Positions 479 through 11,224 of a DNA stretch of 21,803 nucleotides are shown here, piece by piece. The notes under the pieces were generated by a model that saw nothing but the letters and a program-made list of their open reading frames with translations, had not been told where the DNA came from and made no database searches. The stretch covers positions 1-21,803 of IMG/VR virus record IMGVR_UViG_3300012000_000143. The stretch is one strand, 5' to 3'. Numbering within the stretch: position 1 is the first letter of the stretch; each line of letters opens with the position of its first letter. Source of the DNA: a virus. The position numbers and the translations under genes are program-made.

Positions 479-3400
479 CTAATACGAAACGTGCGAGGAT
501 TCACTAGCTTCGCCGCTATGAATCATGATGAAGTCATCAGCGGCTTCTTTGAGTGCGTTAACGTGTGATATAACAAGAATGCTCCTGAACTTGGTTTTCA
601 ACGCGTTCAGGAGTTCAACAGCTCTTGAAACGTTTGTGTCATCAAGCACATCCCAGCCTTCATCGATCACAAGAAAATCTGGCTTTGGCAACCTGGAAAG
701 GTTGATCAGTGCTACTCTGAGGGCGAGAGATGCGATCATCTTCTCCATTCCGGATGCAAGCTCAATGACTCTGGAACTATATTCATCCTCGATGAACACG
801 TCTAGAACGTTTGCGTTTCCAACTTCAGTTTGGAGATATACTCTGAACGGGACAACGCCCCCAAGGATGTTATCAAGCTCTGCGTTCAGGTATGGTAGAG
901 CCGATTGAATCACCATTGCTGGGATGGCATTCTTTGAGAATGCAACACAGATTGCATCCAGGATCTTCTGTTCGGAGACAAGTTTCTCTGCCTCAAGCTT
1001 GTCGGTTTCCAGGGTTGACATCTTGTTGCTGATGGCGCCCAAGCTCTTCATGTTGTTCTGGAACTGCACCCTTGCAAGGTCTAGTTGGTTCTGTATTGCC
1101 TTCTGTTCATCTTGTCTTGCTTCGATCTCTTCAATCTTGGAAAGCAACTCTGCATGTTCGGCGTTGATCTTTTCATTCTCGGCAAGAACCATGTCAAGGT
1201 TAGATTGTGTCGATTCGTGCAACCTTTCCTTGTAGACCTTCTCCAGCAGCGCTGCCTCAAGCTTTGTCTCAGCGTCTTCAATCGCTCTGACCGTTGCATT
1301 CCTTGCTTTGATAGCAAGATCGATGTCTGACACCCGAAGACTGTTCAGGCTCTCTGCAACGGTCGACATCTCCGCCAATATCATAGCCAGCTCAGTGTTT
1401 GTCTTGACTAATAGCTCTCTGTCTTCCTTGGCTCCGGAAATGTACTTGCAAGAGTCAAGGTATTGATCGCCGCAAGGAACGACGTTCAATCTCTTAACAG
1501 ATTCTTCCTGCTTCCGGATCATTGCACGTCCAATAGTCTCACTGCTTCTAAGATCGGCCAGTTTCAATGTCAACTGTTGTAGCGCATCTTTCTTCTGCAA
1601 GAGCGAGTCTTCTCCTTCGGATGTTTCTAGCTCCGTTTTCTTGGCTGCTAGGACTTCGTTCAAACTTCTGATCTTAGATTCTTGCGCGGCCAGTTCTTGG
1701 ACACAAGAGAAGATCTTTGCCTGAACATCTTTCAGAGCTTTGTCAGATGTTGTTTTCCTTGCAATCACGTCGTCAATCTTGCCGCTGTGGTTGTTTGTCA
1801 GCCAGAGTTTTGCTTCGGCCAAGTCTTCTTCAAGCAGATCGATCTCAGCCTTGATCTCTTCCGATTCCTTCTCCAAGGCTTCATGTTCCGAACAGAGCTG
1901 GCTGAGTCTCTGCGAGAAGTCAATGCCCCTGAACCTTGCAGTCTTTGCGTTCATGAGGTTCAGATCGTCGTTCGCTAGCTTGAAGATATCTTCATAGATG
2001 CGCAAATCAAGGAACCTGGAGATCATCTGTTTCCTTGCGGTGGCACCCTCGTTGATGAACTTGTTCATCTCTCCCTGTGCTGCTAGGCCGGTCATGAGAT
2101 AGTCTTGGGGTGATCCAATCAGGTTGCGAATAACCTTGTCGGTGTCGGATCTTGTTTCTGCGTTCTCAGTGTTTAGTTCAATTTCTTGACCGGACATGTC
2201 GACGCGAGCCAGATAAAGTTTTCCAACCGCCTTGTCGTGATCAATCCCTTTTCTTGATCGAGACTTGGTAACTTCTCGCCGCAGAACATAATCGGTTCCA
2301 GACACGTTGAACAAGATCTCTGCAATGCCATTTGTCTTGTTCCTGTTGATGATGTGCGCGGCCTTCACTGGCCCCCTGTCCGTGGTGTTGAACAGGCCGA
2401 ACATCATCGCACCAATGATCGAGCTCTTGCCAGACGCATTGCCGCCAAAGATCCCAGTGATCCCACGCATCTTGGAAAAGTCAATGGTGTTGTCTTCGCC
2501 GAACTTGTAAAGGTTAGAAAAGCTCATGTTCTTCAATGACCACACAACGTCTCTTGCTGAATCTACTCCGCCAGCAACTCTGTTGTAGTATTCAAGGGCC
2601 ATGTTGATCATTGCCTTCTCAGTAGAAGAACCAGAAACAACGTGCACAGCCTCCTGGTTGTCAGCAATGTATTTCTTCAGAGCTTTAACAACCGTGTCCT
2701 GCATTGAGACAGTCCCAGTTCCTGACTTGTGAGTGTTGAACAGATCCTCGTCTGCAACCTCTCCGTCCGAGTATAGACTATTTGAAGTGTCTCGTTTCTT
2801 CTCGAAACGATAAACAACCTCCACAGCCCTGTGTTTTGTACGGAGTTGTTGTGTCAGATCTGTCTTCTGGATGTCAAAGATGGTATTCCTAGACAGGACC
2901 CGTATGCTCTTGCCCGAAAGGTCGTGGCCATGGTCGCGTGTCAATGCGGGAATAGTTTCGAGTGTTGACCCATGCCATTGCACACTCACGAAACTGTGGT
3001 TGTTGTGAAGTCTCCGGAACTCCACATCCCAATCGCTTCTCGATCTGATATCCCAGACCAAGTAACCTTTGACGGCGGACTCACCATAATTCTGCTGAAT
3101 CAAAGAACCAGGATATGCAACGTTTGGCTTCTGGTTCCCATCACCATCTTCTCGATAGGAAAGATATTGCTGCTGGTGAATGTCACCGAACAGTCCAAAC
3201 TCAATTCCTTGGAAATATGACATGCTCTGTTCGGCACCCTTGGTCATGATCCAGTCGGTGTCGGTGACGCATCCTGTGACTGATCCGTGATACAAACAGA
3301 TAGAAACTTTGTTGGGTCGCTGACCTGATATAAACTCTGCCATCGTCCCATCCCAGTCGGCCTTGTCGAACGGGGACAGAACTCCGATGCGCAGATCGCT

Positions 3401-3775
3401 ATCTGGCAGCTCATACACGCCAGTCTTTTTGAAGATCTGAATTCTCGGAGAGTTGATAGCATCAGCAATTGGTGTGATCGTATCCTGCCGGTCCTCGTTC
3501 GCAAGGTTGCCATCATGGTTCCCAAGAATTCCAATCAGCGGAGCTATTGCTGACAACTCACGAAACACCCAAGTCAACTTTTCAATTATCTCAGGCGTGA
3601 TGGCCACAGTTTTCGTGTGAAACCAGTCGCCGGTGCAAACAATATAGTCAGGTTGGACTTCTGTTCTCAGCTCTTCAAACAGCCTTTCAAAACATTCGGT
3701 ATACTCTCTGTGTCTTGCGATACCGCGGAAGTGTATGTCTGATATGTGTGCTAGTTTCATGCTTTTATTTTTCAC
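479..3775 (-). CDS. Fused Mre11/SbcD nuclease - Rad50/SbcC ATPase (T4 gp47-gp46 type)
   Basis: One 1098-residue chain holds both halves of the DNA-end-processing complex that phages normally encode as two proteins (T4 gp47 and gp46). Residues 6-250 are a Mre11-type metallophosphoesterase, with metal-ligand motifs SDIH (12-15), GD (49-50), GNHD (85-88), YHG (162-164) and GDIH (197-200). The Rad50 part starts near 410, with Walker A GGNASGKSS (444-452), long coiled-coil-like arms (about 620-940) around a C-x7-C apex (C768, C776), signature LASGMEK (about 1006-1012), Walker B FLVIDEG (1034-1040), a D-loop (LDD) and switch His1071 (ISHV). All catalytic motifs look intact. Expected role: ATP-driven exo/endonuclease for recombination-dependent replication and host DNA breakdown. 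The frame opens with GTG at 3775, overlapping the primase stop. The ATG at 3760 (MKLAHISDIH) matches usual Mre11 N-termini and may be the true start; neither has a clear ribosome site. Confidence 0.93.
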   Translation of the reverse strand: MKNKSMKLAHISDIHFRGIARHREYTECFERLFEELRTEVQPDYIVCTGDWFHTKTVAITPEIIEKLTWVFRELSAIAPLIGILGNHDGNLANEDRQDTITPIADAINSPRIQIFKKTGVYELPDSDLRIGVLSPFDKADWDGTMAEFISGQRPNKVSICLYHGSVTGCVTDTDWIMTKGAEQSMSYFQGIEFGLFGDIHQQQYLSYREDGDGNQKPNVAYPGSLIQQNYGESAVKGYLVWDIRSRSDWDVEFRRLHNNHSFVSVQWHGSTLETIPALTRDHGHDLSGKSIRVLSRNTIFDIQKTDLTQQLRTKHRAVEVVYRFEKKRDTSNSLYSDGEVADEDLFNTHKSGTGTVSMQDTVVKALKKYIADNQEAVHVVSGSSTEKAMINMALEYYNRVAGGVDSARDVVWSLKNMSFSNLYKFGEDNTIDFSKMRGITGIFGGNASGKSSIIGAMMFGLFNTTDRGPVKAAHIINRNKTNGIAEILFNVSGTDYVLRREVTKSRSRKGIDHDKAVGKLYLARVDMSGQEIELNTENAETRSDTDKVIRNLIGSPQDYLMTGLAAQGEMNKFINEGATARKQMISRFLDLRIYEDIFKLANDDLNLMNAKTARFRGIDFSQRLSQLCSEHEALEKESEEIKAEIDLLEEDLAEAKLWLTNNHSGKIDDVIARKTTSDKALKDVQAKIFSCVQELAAQESKIRSLNEVLAAKKTELETSEGEDSLLQKKDALQQLTLKLADLRSSETIGRAMIRKQEESVKRLNVVPCGDQYLDSCKYISGAKEDRELLVKTNTELAMILAEMSTVAESLNSLRVSDIDLAIKARNATVRAIEDAETKLEAALLEKVYKERLHESTQSNLDMVLAENEKINAEHAELLSKIEEIEARQDEQKAIQNQLDLARVQFQNNMKSLGAISNKMSTLETDKLEAEKLVSEQKILDAICVAFSKNAIPAMVIQSALPYLNAELDNILGGVVPFRVYLQTEVGNANVLDVFIEDEYSSRVIELASGMEKMIASLALRVALINLSRLPKPDFLVIDEGWDVLDDTNVSRAVELLNALKTKFRSILVISHVNALKEAADDFIMIHSGEASESSHVSY

Positions 3776-5257: not shown

Positions 5258-5608
5258 TCAGGCAACGACTCTAAGGTTTTCAGAATAGACATAAGCTATC
5301 TTTTGGTAATGATCAAACCTAACAGGGATTAGTTGCACAGTATCCAGGCCACCAGTTGAAGGTGCGTGACCAATGGTGGCTTCACGTACAGTTGATCGAT
5401 GCACGGGCACTCCCATGCCTTCTATGGTACCAACAGAGCCTCCAGCGGCTCCCCCAATCATTCTACTGATTCCACATCCTTTGTCGTCCAGTACTGCGAC
5501 GCCATTGAGATGCTCAATGTTATACACAGGCACGGTGATCTTTGGGTCATACCCATGAATGCCTTGTGAGATGTTCTTCCCTATGATTACTCTGTCGCCG
5601 TTAGCCAT
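5258..5608 (-). CDS. Small beta-rich protein directly downstream of GroEL, function unknown
   Basis: This 116-residue protein starts MANGDRVIIGKNISQG at 5608, with AGAAAG 12 bases upstream, and follows GroEL by only 24 bases, so the two are probably one transcript. The sequence reads as short beta strands: GDRVIIG, KITVPVYNI, GVAVLD, a glycine-rich loop (MIGGAAGGSVGTIEG, about 51-65), then VQLIPVRFD, KIAYVYSENLRVV. The second half looks like an SH3/KOW-type barrel. Position suggests a helper of the chaperonin, since phages such as T4 carry their own co-chaperonin (gp31), but I cannot find the GroES mobile-loop Ile-Val-Leu signature, so a co-chaperonin call is not justified. No membrane segments or signal peptide are visible. 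Confidence 0.75.
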   Translation of the reverse strand: MANGDRVIIGKNISQGIHGYDPKITVPVYNIEHLNGVAVLDDKGCGISRMIGGAAGGSVGTIEGMGVPVHRSTVREATIGHAPSTGGLDTVQLIPVRFDHYQKIAYVYSENLRVVA

Positions 5609-5632: not shown

Positions 5633-8296
5633 TCAGTTATTGTCGCGGTCAAACACAACACACTCGGTTGTTAGGAGAAGTTGAGCTACTGAGCTAGCAT
5701 ACTCCAGGGCTAGCCGTGAAACTTTCACCGGATCAATAACCCCAGACTTGATCAGGTCACAGAACTCGCCAGTGTTTGCATTGAAACCAAACCTGCTGTG
5801 AGCGTTTGTGCTTCCAGTTTCGTTGAATTCGCTCAGGAGTTTTGCCAAGACCAGATCCGCACTGCCACCAGCGTTCCCAACGATTGTTTTCAGTGGAGCT
5901 TGGCATGCCTCAATAACGACCCGCACCCCAGCGCAGAAATCGTCTGATCTAGTTTTCGAGAGCTCTTGGAGCCTTGTTGACAGTTTGAAAGAATTTGTGC
6001 ACAATGCTGTTCCACCGCCGCCATGGATTCCTTCTTGAACCGCAGCCAGAGTAGCATTGAGCGCATCTTCAACGCGGTCTTTCTTTTCAAACAGCTCAAC
6101 CTCTGTCGAGCCGCCAACCTTCACAACCGCAACACCACCAGAAAGTTTAGCAAGTCTAGTCTTGAGTTGTTCGTACTTCTCATCGCTCAGAACTCCAGGA
6201 GTCTTCCTGGCATGGTCAAGGGAGCTCTCAAGGCTAGCAATTCGTTCCTTCACATGATCGTTTCTGTTCTCGGAAACAAGGAGCGTGCTGGTTTTCCCAG
6301 CGACAACTTTCCCGCAAACACCGAGTTCATTCTTACCAACGGAAGAAAGTGGTTTAGCGTACCCAGAATCAATGAGTTTGGCACCGGTTACAAGGGCAAT
6401 GTCAGAGAGCAGCTCATGCCTGTGATCACCGAACGCTGGCGCTCTGATAGCACAGACTTTGATGATCTTGTTTGTCTTGTTGACAATCAGAGCATGCAGC
6501 GCTTCCCCCTCAACATCATCAGCAATGATCAGGAGCGCTTTGTTTTCCTGCTGCACAACTTCAAGCACCCTCAAGATATCTTTCATCGAAGAGATCTTCT
6601 GAGTGGTCACTAGCACATAACAGTCATTGAACTCAGCAGTCAGTTTCTCTTGGTTTGTAACAAAGTACGGCGATATGTAACCGTTAGATATCTCCAGCCC
6701 ATCTGTCACTTCCAAGGTTGTCTTGGTGCTCTTTGCCGGCTCTACAGTAATCAGCCCGTTTGGTCCAACTTTCTCAACCGCATCAGCAATCAGTTCGCCG
6801 ATCTTCCTGTCACGAGATGAGATCTGACCAACGCTGATAACCGCTTCGCGGTCCCCACTGACTGACACGGATCCAGCCACCATGTCATCGATCACAACCT
6901 TGGTGGCCCACTCAATACCTTTCTGTAGGTCAGAAGTCGACCTCCCAGATGCCTTCATCTTCAGTCCAGAGTACAAAAGGTTATAGGCCAAGACAGAGGC
7001 CGTCGTTGTATTATGCGTAGGCACAAAATCGTTTGTGATGTACAGATGATCTTCGTTGCTTACCTTGATGCAGACCATCTCTGTTTTTTGAGACGTCTTT
7101 TCAATGTCCAATAGCGCCAGACCATGTTTGTTTCCTTTCAGTTGCGTTACTCTATAGATTGGCTTGGTGCTGAAGCTTCCGTCGCCAGCCTTCCTTTCCA
7201 ATTTTCTGACATGGATCTGTAGCCCCAAACTCCTGCACAGGTGCACAAAATCCAAACACAGCTTCTCGCTTACTGTACTAAGTTCAAACAGTCCTCTCCC
7301 CGAAATCGTTCCATCGGTATCGATCAACCCCTCCAGTAGTTTTCTCCTGCTTTCAAGTGAAGAAAACAGATAGTTTGCCGGAATGAACTTTGTATGGCTA
7401 TTAGTCCCAAGAAGTCCCAGAGTACGAAGATGTCTCTTCACTATCGATCTGTTGCCGTTTTCATCTTTTGGCGAAGTGCCTGACAGCGTTGCCCTGATAT
7501 AGTGTTTCTTGTCTCTATAGAATCGTTTGTGAACTTTGCATCCTTCAGGCAAGAGCAACCGGTCGATCACATCTTCTTCGCCAAGACCAACGGCAATTTC
7601 AATACGACCATTTTCGCTCAAGCTGCCATCACCGAGTAGCACTCCGAGCAGATACGGATCAAGAGGCAACTCGCTTGATTGGAATTCTATCTGCGTTGGT
7701 CGTACAAAGTATTTAGTACCAACGCTGCGTCGGATACCAGATTTGATTATTTCACCAGTAGTCATGCATTTTTCGTCACCATTGTACGTGACAACGGACC
7801 AGAGATGGTTTTCACTACATTCGACAACACGAGTTGTCTTGTTGCCGTCACCAAAATGCATTTTATATACGGTTTGCACGCCTTGAGGAAATATGCCAAG
7901 CACGTGCTGTAGTGTGCCATTGGTGCCGCATATCACGTCGCCAGTTTTCAACTGTCCGATGGTTGTCCATCCTGTTGGGGTAAGCACTTTTGCATGCATC
8001 GGTTGTGGGCCATCTCCGCAGGCTTCGTTGGTTTTTGCTGCAACTTCTTTGATCAGGTTTGCTCCAACAGACTCCAGTCTGTCCTTGAGGTTGATTGAAC
8101 GAGCAACGGTCACACCATCCTTTGTGATCAGTGGCGCGGTCACTCCGTTATCAATGATAACGTTCTTGCCTTTTGGACCCATGGTGGAGCTGACAGCGGT
8201 AAACAACTTCTTTGCACCACGCATCATTCCGTCTGTTGCGGCAGATCCAAAAACAACGCTATCAAGTTCTTCGGCGGCCTCTTTGTTTTGTTTCAT
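5633..8296 (-). CDS. groEL: GroEL/Cpn60 chaperonin precursor interrupted by an intein
   Basis: The 887-residue precursor is a 554-residue group I chaperonin plus a 333-residue intein (97-429). Extein signatures are TMGPKGKNVII (38-48), ITKDGVTVAR (57-66), EVAAKTNEACGDG (84-96) running into TTTASVLAYN (430-439), PAFGDHR, LAKLSGGVAVVKVGG, and RVEDALNATLAAVQEG, which contains the catalytic Asp equivalent to E. coli D398. It ends SSVAQLLLTTECVVFDRDNN without a Gly-Gly-Met tail. Expected role: ATP-driven refolding of phage proteins, plausibly the large gp23-like capsid protein, since T4 gp23 requires the host GroEL. The intein splits the nucleotide-binding Gly-Asp-Gly/Thr-Thr-Thr loop, so unspliced protein should not turn over ATP. 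The start overlaps the stop of the gene at 8769 as ATGA. The phage GroEL is complete, not a remnant. Confidence 0.96.
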   Translation of the reverse strand: MKQNKEAAEELDSVVFGSAATDGMMRGAKKLFTAVSSTMGPKGKNVIIDNGVTAPLITKDGVTVARSINLKDRLESVGANLIKEVAAKTNEACGDGPQPMHAKVLTPTGWTTIGQLKTGDVICGTNGTLQHVLGIFPQGVQTVYKMHFGDGNKTTRVVECSENHLWSVVTYNGDEKCMTTGEIIKSGIRRSVGTKYFVRPTQIEFQSSELPLDPYLLGVLLGDGSLSENGRIEIAVGLGEEDVIDRLLLPEGCKVHKRFYRDKKHYIRATLSGTSPKDENGNRSIVKRHLRTLGLLGTNSHTKFIPANYLFSSLESRRKLLEGLIDTDGTISGRGLFELSTVSEKLCLDFVHLCRSLGLQIHVRKLERKAGDGSFSTKPIYRVTQLKGNKHGLALLDIEKTSQKTEMVCIKVSNEDHLYITNDFVPTHNTTTASVLAYNLLYSGLKMKASGRSTSDLQKGIEWATKVVIDDMVAGSVSVSGDREAVISVGQISSRDRKIGELIADAVEKVGPNGLITVEPAKSTKTTLEVTDGLEISNGYISPYFVTNQEKLTAEFNDCYVLVTTQKISSMKDILRVLEVVQQENKALLIIADDVEGEALHALIVNKTNKIIKVCAIRAPAFGDHRHELLSDIALVTGAKLIDSGYAKPLSSVGKNELGVCGKVVAGKTSTLLVSENRNDHVKERIASLESSLDHARKTPGVLSDEKYEQLKTRLAKLSGGVAVVKVGGSTEVELFEKKDRVEDALNATLAAVQEGIHGGGGTALCTNSFKLSTRLQELSKTRSDDFCAGVRVVIEACQAPLKTIVGNAGGSADLVLAKLLSEFNETGSTNAHSRFGFNANTGEFCDLIKSGVIDPVKVSRLALEYASSVAQLLLTTECVVFDRDNN
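7010..8008 (-). mobile_element. Class 3-type intein with LAGLIDADG homing endonuclease, in GroEL
   Basis: This 333-residue in-frame insert lies between Gly and Thr of the chaperonin GDG/TTT loop. The N-terminal block (PQPMHAKVLTPTGW) opens with Pro rather than Cys or Ser. Block B ends ENHLW (W70), block F reads MVCIKV (C313 in the place of the usual Asp), and block G is FVPTHN (T331, H332, N333), followed by Thr +1. A non-nucleophilic residue 1, the W/C/T triplet and Thr +1 are the published marks of class 3 inteins, such as the mycobacteriophage Bethlehem DnaB intein. There splicing starts from the block F Cys. Two LAGLIDADG helices, LLGVLLGDGSL (120-130) and LLEGLIDTDGTI (224-235), keep their acidic residues, so homing activity is likely. 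Removing it restores GroEL with no residue gained or lost. Confidence 0.93.
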
Positions 8297-8769
8297 ACGT
8301 CTATCTCTAAGTCAATCTTTGTGCCATCTGGCATTGTCACTGTTGGTTTTTTCTTTGGCTGGTTGTGTATTGCTCGATCCTGATCAGATGCACTCCTGGG
8401 CGAATTATTGGCACTCTCCGCTGGCGTTTGTGACGCACCAAAACTAAGCATCGACAGCTTCTCCGCATTTTCAACTAAGTTTGAAACAATAGCCTCAAAC
8501 TTGTCAATGAGATACCGTTTCGCAGTCTCAAGGGTCGGAAACCATTGATCACCAATCGTTTCTAGCTGCAAGAGCTGTGTGGTTACTGAACTATCTTCCG
8601 CAAAGGTATCCAGCCTGACAGTGTATGTTTTCTTTGTTCCACTGATCGATTTGTGGACAACCTCTTCAGTTACTTGGACTGGATAGAGCGCACCAGTCTC
8701 GGAAGCAACACAGTATATCACTTGCCCGATCTCTAACTGATGACTTTGTTGTTGCAGAGGATCTGTCAT
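8293..8769 (-). CDS. Unknown protein (158 residues) upstream of groEL
   Basis: It starts MTDPLQQQSHQLEIGQVIYC at 8769; no strong ribosome site precedes it, but it lies 25 bases after the gene at 9208, and its stop overlaps the groEL start by 4 bases. Residues 12-95 look like a small beta domain (GQVIYCVASETGALYPVQV, KKTYTVRLD) followed by a helix (TLETAKRYLIDKFEAIVSNL). Residues 108-145 are Ser/Asn/Lys-rich and probably disordered, and the chain ends in a strand-like tail, VTMPDGTKIDLEIDV. I recognise no named family. Translational coupling to groEL suggests joint expression, not necessarily joint function. Confidence 0.8.
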   Translation of the reverse strand: MTDPLQQQSHQLEIGQVIYCVASETGALYPVQVTEEVVHKSISGTKKTYTVRLDTFAEDSSVTTQLLQLETIGDQWFPTLETAKRYLIDKFEAIVSNLVENAEKLSMLSFGASQTPAESANNSPRSASDQDRAIHNQPKKKPTVTMPDGTKIDLEIDV

Positions 8770-8794: not shown

Positions 8795-9208
8795 TCAGTT
8801 AGACAACCCTGACTGACGAAGGATTTTTTCATAGTCTTCTTTCAACACTAAGATAGTTTCCTTGTTTCCAGTCTTCTTCTCATAAGGAATGAGATCCAAA
8901 CCCTCAAGGGCTCGCCGCATCTTTGTCTCACTGTCATAGCCTGAGTACAGAGAGAACAGCGCCATGATTTTTTCAAACGCGGTGCTGTGCAGTCTCATTG
9001 GCATGATCTGTCTCACTGGGATTCTACGGTCGCTTGCTTCTTTGATCAGTCGGTCGTAGTCAACTATGATCATGTCAGTTCTGTCGCCGCCATAGATCGC
9101 GTACTGTTTGTCTATGAGACGCACGCGGAGCTTTGACTCGGAGCTGTGACCACCAAAGTTCTTGACTTCGTTCAGGATGTTTCCTATGACTGTCTGGTGG
9201 AGTTTCAT
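8795..9208 (-). CDS. Unknown protein (137 residues)
   Basis: It begins MKLHQTVIGNILNEVKNFGG at 9208, with ATGA overlapping the stop of the preceding gene, and ends SGLSN. The pattern is mixed helix and strand: an N-terminal helix, strands at KLRVRLID, YAIYGG and DMIIVDY, then helices at LIKEASDRR, AFEKIMALFSLYSG and EDYEKILRQSG. No catalytic motif, membrane segment or signal peptide is visible and I recognise no family. It is probably cytoplasmic, in the same transcript as its neighbours. Confidence 0.75.
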   Translation of the reverse strand: MKLHQTVIGNILNEVKNFGGHSSESKLRVRLIDKQYAIYGGDRTDMIIVDYDRLIKEASDRRIPVRQIMPMRLHSTAFEKIMALFSLYSGYDSETKMRRALEGLDLIPYEKKTGNKETILVLKEDYEKILRQSGLSN

Positions 9209-9666
9209 TTACTTGTTCCTACGTCTTCCTTTGCTCTGGCGGCAATTCTTTCGTTCACAATGTTCTCGGCTAGTTTGCTAGCTGTCTCTAGAAGTTCATT
9301 GCCCTTCTTCTTCGCAACCTTCAGAGGCTCTAGACCAATTGATATTCTTATGTGATCGACAGTCTCGATGAATGCCTTGTTCTGTTTGCCGCCAAACTTC
9401 TTCGAAAGGGCCTCCTCAACCTCTTTGAAATCCACGAACATATGTGGCCACGGGCCTTCCATCACAGGCTCACCATTCTGTAACTCCTCAGTTTCACGAT
9501 ATTCCATCACAAACAGCCCCGCGGGCATGTCGGCATCTGCTGGGATGATCACATAAGGAATTGGTGAAACTTTCTCGCCATCAAAGTTTGGAGTTTCATA
9601 TAGAATCTCTGGGAGGTGCTTCATCTTCCGGCGTTGTTTGCCGTTGACTGAATATTTCTGTGACAT
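9205..9666 (-). CDS. Unknown protein (153 residues)
   Basis: It begins MSQKYSVNGKQRRKMKHLPE at 9666, six bases after the stop of the GapR-like gene, with a GGAGAGG sequence somewhat far upstream. The first 15 residues are strongly basic. Residues 20-80 look beta-rich (ILYETPNF, YVIIPADADMPAGLFVMEY, WPHMFVDF). The C-terminal half is helical and charged (VEEALSKKFGG, LLETASKLAENIVNERIAAR). No family is recognised. Its stop overlaps the next start (ATGA), so translation of the two is probably coupled. Confidence 0.75.
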   Translation of the reverse strand: MSQKYSVNGKQRRKMKHLPEILYETPNFDGEKVSPIPYVIIPADADMPAGLFVMEYRETEELQNGEPVMEGPWPHMFVDFKEVEEALSKKFGGKQNKAFIETVDHIRISIGLEPLKVAKKKGNELLETASKLAENIVNERIAARAKEDVGTSK

Positions 9667-10051: not shown

Positions 10052-11224
10052 TCACATGGCCGCGGACATGACTTGCTTGAACTCGCCAGCGGTCGCAACG
10101 CCATTTGGATCCTCTGCTATGATTGGTTTGTACTTCTTCATGATCGAGTCCAGGATCGCATTCTTTTTGTTCGCCAGCTCCGCCGACCAGCGAGCCATCT
10201 CCTGGTCATTGATCTGAAGAGGCCCGGCATTTGCTCTAAGGTCTTGTTTCACTGCTGGGAACATTGGAGCCAGGAGAGTTTCGGTGTTTTTCTTCACGAA
10301 ACTGAGTTCTCTGTCCTTGGTGTTTTTGAAGATCTCATCCATGAAATGCTGCATGTCTTCTTGGTAAGTTTTCCCCAAGACCTTCTTCAATGTTTCCAGG
10401 TTCTTCTTGAGGCTAGTAGAGCTCACACCGCTGGGTGCAGCCTCTGCCATGACTTGCGACATGGCATGCGTGGGTGTGTGAAACTCATCATTTGCCAAGT
10501 GGAAGATGTTGCCAAGAAGTCCGCGCTCCTTATAGTTCGCTGTCGAATAACTGAAAGGCCGGTAGAGGTGACTGCGGATATAGGAGTCAAGGTTTCCTGG
10601 ATCTCTCATGTCATCTGGAAGGTTGATAATCCTGTCGATGAGATGTCCTACAAGGCCGCCGGTTATCACGTTCGTTATAGAAACGGCAGTATCAATTGCT
10701 TGACCAGCAGCCATCATGTTGCCAACGACGCCATAGGGAGCAATAAAGAAGCCAAGACCTATCAAGTCTGGTTTGATTAATTCCCAGCCTGTGTCAAAGC
10801 CGGCCAACTCTTTCTCAAACTGTTGATTGATTGATTTGATGGCCCGAGCTTCCCAGTACATGAATTTTCTGGTGACATAAGATGTGGCAAGGTGCGAGTT
10901 GAAAGGCAAGAGCATGGTCACTGTGCCTGCAAACAGTGATCCCACCGTCGAGAGCGCCTGGACTCCAAGTTTTGCACTGTCTCGCTTCAAGATGTTCCAT
11001 ATGTCTCTGATTGCGGCAAAACCCATTGCACCAAACACGCCATTGCGCGACCACATCCCATTGTCGGAACCAGAAGACGATGAGCCATATCCACCGCCGC
11101 CACCAAGAGAAACGCCATAGCCGCCCTCATAGCCAGGGCTGTCATAGGATCCGTCATCTTGCTCCGTGAGCAGAAGTTCCGCTAGAGTTGTCTTACTTTT
11201 TTGTTTTTGTTTTCCTGGTTTCAT
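10052..11224 (-). CDS. Unknown protein with glycine-rich linker and hydrophobic segments (390 residues)
   Basis: It begins MKPGKQKQKSKTTLAELLL at 11224, overlapping the end of the upstream gene by 32 bases. Residues 1-25 are basic. Residues 25-55 are an unusual Gly/Ser/Tyr-rich stretch (GGYGVSLGGGGGYGSSSSG). Two hydrophobic regions follow: about 88-105 (LSTVGSLFAGTVTMLLPF) and about 154-195 (LIGLGFFIAPYGVVGNMMAA, continuing through SITNVITGGLVGHLI), which could be membrane segments. The C-terminal half is charged and helical. I recognise no family. It lies next to the head module but on the opposite strand. It might be a virion or membrane-associated protein; this is inference from composition only. 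Confidence 0.8.
   Translation of the reverse strand: MKPGKQKQKSKTTLAELLLTEQDDGSYDSPGYEGGYGVSLGGGGGYGSSSSGSDNGMWSRNGVFGAMGFAAIRDIWNILKRDSAKLGVQALSTVGSLFAGTVTMLLPFNSHLATSYVTRKFMYWEARAIKSINQQFEKELAGFDTGWELIKPDLIGLGFFIAPYGVVGNMMAAGQAIDTAVSITNVITGGLVGHLIDRIINLPDDMRDPGNLDSYIRSHLYRPFSYSTANYKERGLLGNIFHLANDEFHTPTHAMSQVMAEAAPSGVSSTSLKKNLETLKKVLGKTYQEDMQHFMDEIFKNTKDRELSFVKKNTETLLAPMFPAVKQDLRANAGPLQINDQEMARWSAELANKKNAILDSIMKKYKPIIAEDPNGVATAGEFKQVMSAAM

Follow-up and report, generated by a model that had tools for sequence, protein, structure and literature searches.

The groEL gene of the window, a stretch of 21,803 nucleotides (IMG/VR record IMGVR_UViG_3300012000_000143), carries an in-frame insert. We consider it very probable (roughly 0.93) that the insert is a class 3 intein of full length which carries a LAGLIDADG homing endonuclease and separates Gly96 from Thr97 in the GroEL of a tailed phage (GDG/TTT, where the slash marks the insertion site), and that splicing and homing are to be expected. 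The window also encodes a T4-like portal protein (Gp20), a major capsid protein (Gp23), and a head maturation protease and is, therefore, a tailed-phage contig. The parts of the interrupted gene are as follows:

5633..8296, minus strand: groEL with in-frame intein; precursor of 887 aa, predicted spliced product of 554 aa
8009..8296, minus strand: N-extein, GroEL residues 1-96, ending in NEACGDG; matches the empty allele of contig L014
7010..8008, minus strand: class 3 intein of 333 aa, PQPMHAKVL...VPTHN, assigned from residues, alignment, tree, and predicted structure
5636..7009, minus strand: C-extein, GroEL residues 97-554, starting with TTTASVLA; the stop codon is at 5633-5635

The coordinates, length, and residues that a first-pass annotation had given for the insert were all reproduced from the open reading frame at 5633-8296 on the minus strand. 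The insert comprises residues 97-429 of this frame (333 aa), contains no internal stops, and splits GroEL between CGDG and TTTASV, with the frame open across all 887 codons. Pfam and NCBIfam found two GroEL stretches flanking a LAGLIDADG homing endonuclease in the 887-aa product. Without the insert, a protein of 554 aa is left, which is a GroEL, or group I chaperonin, at full length: residues 14-551 align to solved GroELs with E values down to 3e-131, and a further family match had an E value of 3e-165. The insert is more than a chance feature because a syntenic contig, L014, encodes an insert-free GroEL with 81% identity and because more than 30 other GroELs carry inserts at the same site with the same residues.

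No PHROGs families were found for the neighbouring genes at 5258-5608, 8293-8769, 8795-9208, 9205-9666, and 10052-11224 (all on the minus strand), and the four of these five that were searched against Pfam were negative there as well. The gene at 8293-8769 (minus strand) overlaps groEL by 4 nt, and no GroES was recognised among the groEL neighbour genes of the window. Farther away, a 1098-aa open reading frame at 479-3775 (minus strand) joins a calcineurin-like phosphoesterase (residues 6-97) to an SMC/SbcC-type ATPase (residues 415-1089) and is a fused gp47/gp46 (SbcD-SbcC) nuclease.

Class 3 inteins are defined by the lack of an N-terminal nucleophile together with Trp at B:12, Cys at F:4, and Thr at G:5 (PMC3196547). 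All these sequence features were found in the insert, which has no Cys, Ser, or Thr at position 1 and in which the G:5 Thr is followed by His-Asn. The residues concerned and the endonuclease motifs are at the following positions:

8006..8008, minus strand: Pro1 (codon CCA), no N-terminal nucleophile; the scissile bond is Gly(-1)-Pro1
7805..7807, minus strand: His68, block B:10, invariant in 128 inteins
7799..7801, minus strand: Trp70 (TGG), block B:12, Trp of the WCT triplet; ENHLW is intein 66-70
7070..7072, minus strand: Cys313 (TGC), block F:4, Cys of the WCT triplet and predicted initiating nucleophile; MVCIKV is intein 311-316
7010..7018, minus strand: Thr331-His332-Asn333, block G:5-7: Thr of the triplet, His, and cyclising Asn
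7007..7009, minus strand: Thr +1, expected to act as nucleophile in the second step; it is also the first Thr in the ATP-site motif of GroEL, GDGTTT
7625..7651, minus strand: LAGLIDADG (DOD) motif 1, LLGVLLGDG, intein 120-128, catalytic Asp127
7310..7339, minus strand: LAGLIDADG (DOD) motif 2, LLEGLIDTDG, intein 224-233, catalytic Asp232

The first-pass annotation had read these splicing residues correctly. Pro is the first residue of the insert (codon 8006-8008), with the boundary set by empty alleles. The Trp closing block B in ENHLW is W70, two residues past the invariant His68, and aligns to B:12; the Cys of MVCIKV, at a block F position usually held by Asp, is C313 and aligns to F:4. The Thr-His-Asn end is T331-H332-N333 at 7010-7018, and the C-extein TTTASV supplies the Thr at +1. 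Misalignment of W70, C313, and T331 had been named as grounds for rejecting the assignment, and the triplet aligns to the class 3 positions. Both catalytic Asp residues (D127 and D232) are present in the two DOD motifs, as predicted for a LAGLIDADG homing endonuclease. The Pfam family PF14890 (Intein_splicing) had no match in the window.

Relatives that align over the full length at 30-38% identity were found in phage helicases, terminases, PhoH, and other proteins and in plasmid ATPases. The 12 nearest keep the equivalents of W70, C313, and THN, except that Trp is missing in one. This one, the RNA ligase intein of Staphylococcus phage Alsa_1 (L010), has Ile at B:12 together with Cys at F:4 and THN. 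Residues were counted in a non-redundant set of 128 inteins. Pro1, Trp, Cys, and THN were present in 22/22 GroEL inteins, where Pro1 and THN were in no scan pattern and the boundary search demanded an early Pro and a terminal THN; in the unfiltered listing, GDG/P was seen in every GroEL match with its N-terminus present. The other class 3 relatives had Trp in 97/98 and Cys in 97/98, and their THN is no evidence since it was preset as an inclusion condition. Some scan patterns included His/Trp of block B or Cys of block F and another pattern set included neither, while the GroEL inteins L052 and L053 were recovered by way of the GroEL extein only. In the six well-behaved class 1 phage inteins, position 1 is Cys, and Leu and Gly stand where class 3 has Trp and Cys, respectively.

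A tree with class 1 and class 3 inteins, which had been proposed as a check, was built from 80 rows with IQ-TREE (LG+C20, quick search) and placed the insert inside class 3. The 22 GroEL inteins formed one clade (SH-aLRT 100) within the class 3 set, and the only class 1 outgroups, six in number, lay across a branch with a support of 100. The first-pass annotation would have given up its assignment if the insert had grouped with class 1; it falls on the class 3 side (SH-aLRT 100). The P1201 terminase intein formed a long branch and was dropped from a second tree, which gave the same outcome with support values of 99 and 100. With the defining residues at aligned positions, a position inside class 3 in the tree, and six class 1 inteins outside, the original claim of a class 3 intein in a phage GroEL is supported. 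A terminase intein of Acidovorax phage ACF1 (L217, MZ547449.1, 460-1515) has Cys1 as well as Trp at B:12, Cys at F:4, and THN, and the tree places it among the class 3 inteins; it is possibly a class 1/class 3 hybrid or a reversion.

The insert was also modelled with AlphaFold, with ten extein residues on each side (pLDDT 89.5, pTM 0.89). When this model was searched with Foldseek, PI-SceI and other endonuclease-bearing inteins came first (E value 1.5e-16), followed by the class 3 MchDnaB1 and M. smegmatis DnaB inteins. The model confidently predicts the Hint fold that belongs to class 3.

Natural empty alleles (L014 and L016) encode the expected uninterrupted GroEL. The intein-bearing L052 and the intein-free L016 share about 91% DNA identity on both flanks of the insert, and the BLAST matches end at the predicted boundaries (2004/2005 and 3021/3022 of L052 against 3291/3292 of L016). 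The nearest relative of the window is L014, a syntenic phage contig whose insert-free GroEL has 80-81% amino acid identity. These two close pairs fix the intein boundaries and indicate patchy mobility. In the GroEL extein tree, the window is sister to the empty L014 and L072 to the empty L016, and at least five switches between presence and absence of the intein fall on well-supported branches. A homing element would leave such a pattern, and so would repeated loss, gain and loss being indistinguishable on the tree. The inteins of L052 and L053 differ with a dN of 0.22 and a dS near saturation, which would fit constraint on the intein, if imprecisely, and the window extein has a low dN/dS against its empty sister L014. 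These selection estimates are rough because dS was saturated in most pairs. Vibrio phage 1.244.A (L005, MG592609.1) combines a class 3 intein at Walker A with a GroEL gene that lacks an intein and is a candidate setting for intein transfer between the Walker A and GroEL sites.

The window is not a singular case and belongs to a family with more than 30 GroEL inteins. At the GDG/TTT site, 33 further distinct versions were found (31 clusters at 90% identity), which come from viral contigs and one bacterial MAG contig with terminase- and portal-like open reading frames. One more match to the GDG...THN pattern (L193) was a chance match within an endonuclease and was discarded, which reduced the count from 34 to 33 and the clusters from 32 to 31. 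All 33 have Pro1, Trp, Cys, THN, and Thr at +1. A GroEL profile made from intein-free phage GroELs matched 32/32 tested exteins with E values of 2e-50 or better. Some of the exteins are very divergent, so that some of the host proteins may no longer function as chaperonins. Two members are mini-inteins of 139 aa (L115) and 247 aa (L114) that have lost endonuclease sequence and have kept P1, W, C, THN, and the frame. This retention of the splicing residues after endonuclease loss argues that splicing is under selection. One GroEL intein copy (L096/L097) has a frameshift inside the intein, from either sequencing error or decay. Used as a single-sequence query against viral contigs, the insert found no relative; alignments and the GroEL extein were needed.

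Three other explanations of the insert were weighed. The first is a class 1 or class 2 intein that has Cys at F:4 by coincidence; in class 1, residue 1 would begin the splicing, and in class 2, the KlbA type, the +1 residue would attack directly. Examples of class 1 with an F:4 Cys are known (PMC3196547), and the ACF1 terminase intein combines Cys1 with the WCT residues. The Pro at position 1 in all GroEL inteins, however, makes class 1 chemistry impossible, class 2 has been reported only in KlbA (PMC3196547), Trp B:12 and Thr G:5 are present along with the Cys, and the tree sets six class 1 inteins apart, all of which makes this explanation highly improbable. It is also very unlikely that the element is degenerate and either does not splice or only cleaves, leaving a GroEL pseudogene or GroEL in two pieces. 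Decayed relatives are represented by the frameshifted L096/L097 copy, and a related class 3 intein, Arthrobacter Arth_1007, is known to be dead (PMC3196547). Against decay, the catalytic residues of the window intein are all intact, the 887 codons are open, the extein is about 80% identical to its empty sister with a low dN/dS, and the splicing residues are retained in mini-inteins.

Since the window is a 21.8-kb metagenomic virus record, mis-joining of an intein sequence to groEL during assembly was considered as well. The same junctions, however, were found across many samples, in over 30 distinct GroELs, these inteins form a single GroEL-specific clade in the intein tree, and the composition differs little (GC 0.456 vs 0.49), so that a chimera is vanishingly unlikely.

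Judged by its sequence, the class 3 intein of the window very likely splices. In class 3 splicing, the F:4 Cys attacks the N-terminal scissile bond, transfer to the +1 residue follows, and Asn cyclisation and an acyl shift complete the reaction (PMC7664689, PMC7891396, PMC3196547). By analogy with these characterised homologues, we infer that Cys313 would attack the Gly(-1)-Pro1 bond and take up the N-extein as a thioester. Transesterification would then move the N-extein to Thr +1, cyclisation of Asn333, helped by His332, would release the intein, and an O-to-N acyl shift would form the Gly-Thr peptide bond and restore GDGTTT. In GroEL, the first Thr of this motif binds nucleotide phosphates and Mg. 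Because the acceptor is this Thr, correct ATP binding would be prevented before splicing, and the unspliced GroEL should be an inactive ATPase. The endonuclease would cut the intein-free groEL of related phages, into which the intein would be copied. Since the ATP site is blocked and a free Cys would begin the reaction, timing or redox control of splicing is conceivable. We nevertheless regard it as improbable that the intein is a useful post-translational gate that confines the activity of the phage chaperonin to one particular phase of infection. That the element, in some cases as an endonuclease-free mini-intein, has long persisted at a single site is compatible with such a role and does not require it.

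The insert was compared with the class 3 inteins of mycobacteriophage Bethlehem DnaB, D. radiodurans Snf2, MP-Catera Gp206, M. chimaera DnaB1 (PDB 6rix/6riy), and M. smegmatis DnaB (PDB 6bs8). Common to all are the absence of an N-terminal nucleophile, Trp B:12, Cys F:4, Thr G:5, His B:10, a His-Asn end, and the Hint fold, which is predicted for the GroEL intein. The differences lie in the host, which is GroEL and not a P-loop helicase or terminase; in the site, GDG/TTT as opposed to Walker A GK/[ST]; and in residue 1, which is fixed as Pro in GroEL inteins and is mostly Ala in class 3 relatives. The first-pass annotation had described class 3 inteins as residing mainly in replication and packaging proteins, in agreement with the relatives retrieved here, most of which interrupt P-loop proteins such as helicases and terminases at Walker A. 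Since most relatives lie at Walker A GK/[ST], the GroEL site follows the same logic of a glycine-rich phosphate loop and then Thr. Among the phage Walker A inteins, the best match to the window insert, from Vibrio phage 1.161.O (MG592529.1), had 37% identity. This group shares with it a full-length alignment, a LAGLIDADG endonuclease, a QP start, and a THN/T end, but differs in host proteins, residue 1, and insertion motif and falls outside the GroEL clade. The AceL NrdHF intein (PMC7891396) resembles the GroEL case in its class 3 mechanism, a host (ribonucleotide reductase) beyond the helicase and terminase set, and a probable phage contig; in contrast to it, the AceL intein is split, departs from the usual WCT triplet, and has another host protein.

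We found no mention of a GroEL intein in the open-access literature searched, although the 1701 class 3 inteins catalogued from nr in 2020 may include one unremarked (PMC7891396). When GroEL-intein junctions were searched for in 50,697 phage records, all matches were to P-loop proteins or due to chance, and megablast of the window against phage records gave no match. One unannotated junction match, MT835760.1, was rejected: its intein ends in THN/TTVLKW, and a GDG-type GroEL junction was not found. The class 3 chemistry is already known; GroEL as a host protein, the GDG/TTT site, and the distinct clade are new.

With these findings, class 3 inteins, a rare chemistry, gain GroEL as a host, and a nucleotide-binding loop outside the P-loop proteins is seen to have been invaded. 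The more than 30 diverse members, the mini-inteins, and the close empty alleles make up a natural test set for class 3 splicing at a Gly-Pro scissile bond, and the same set is suited to the study of homing between phages. New class 3 mini-inteins, such as the 139-aa one, are possible ligation tools. The family also makes it possible to study a paradox, namely that a folding machine has to begin by processing itself.
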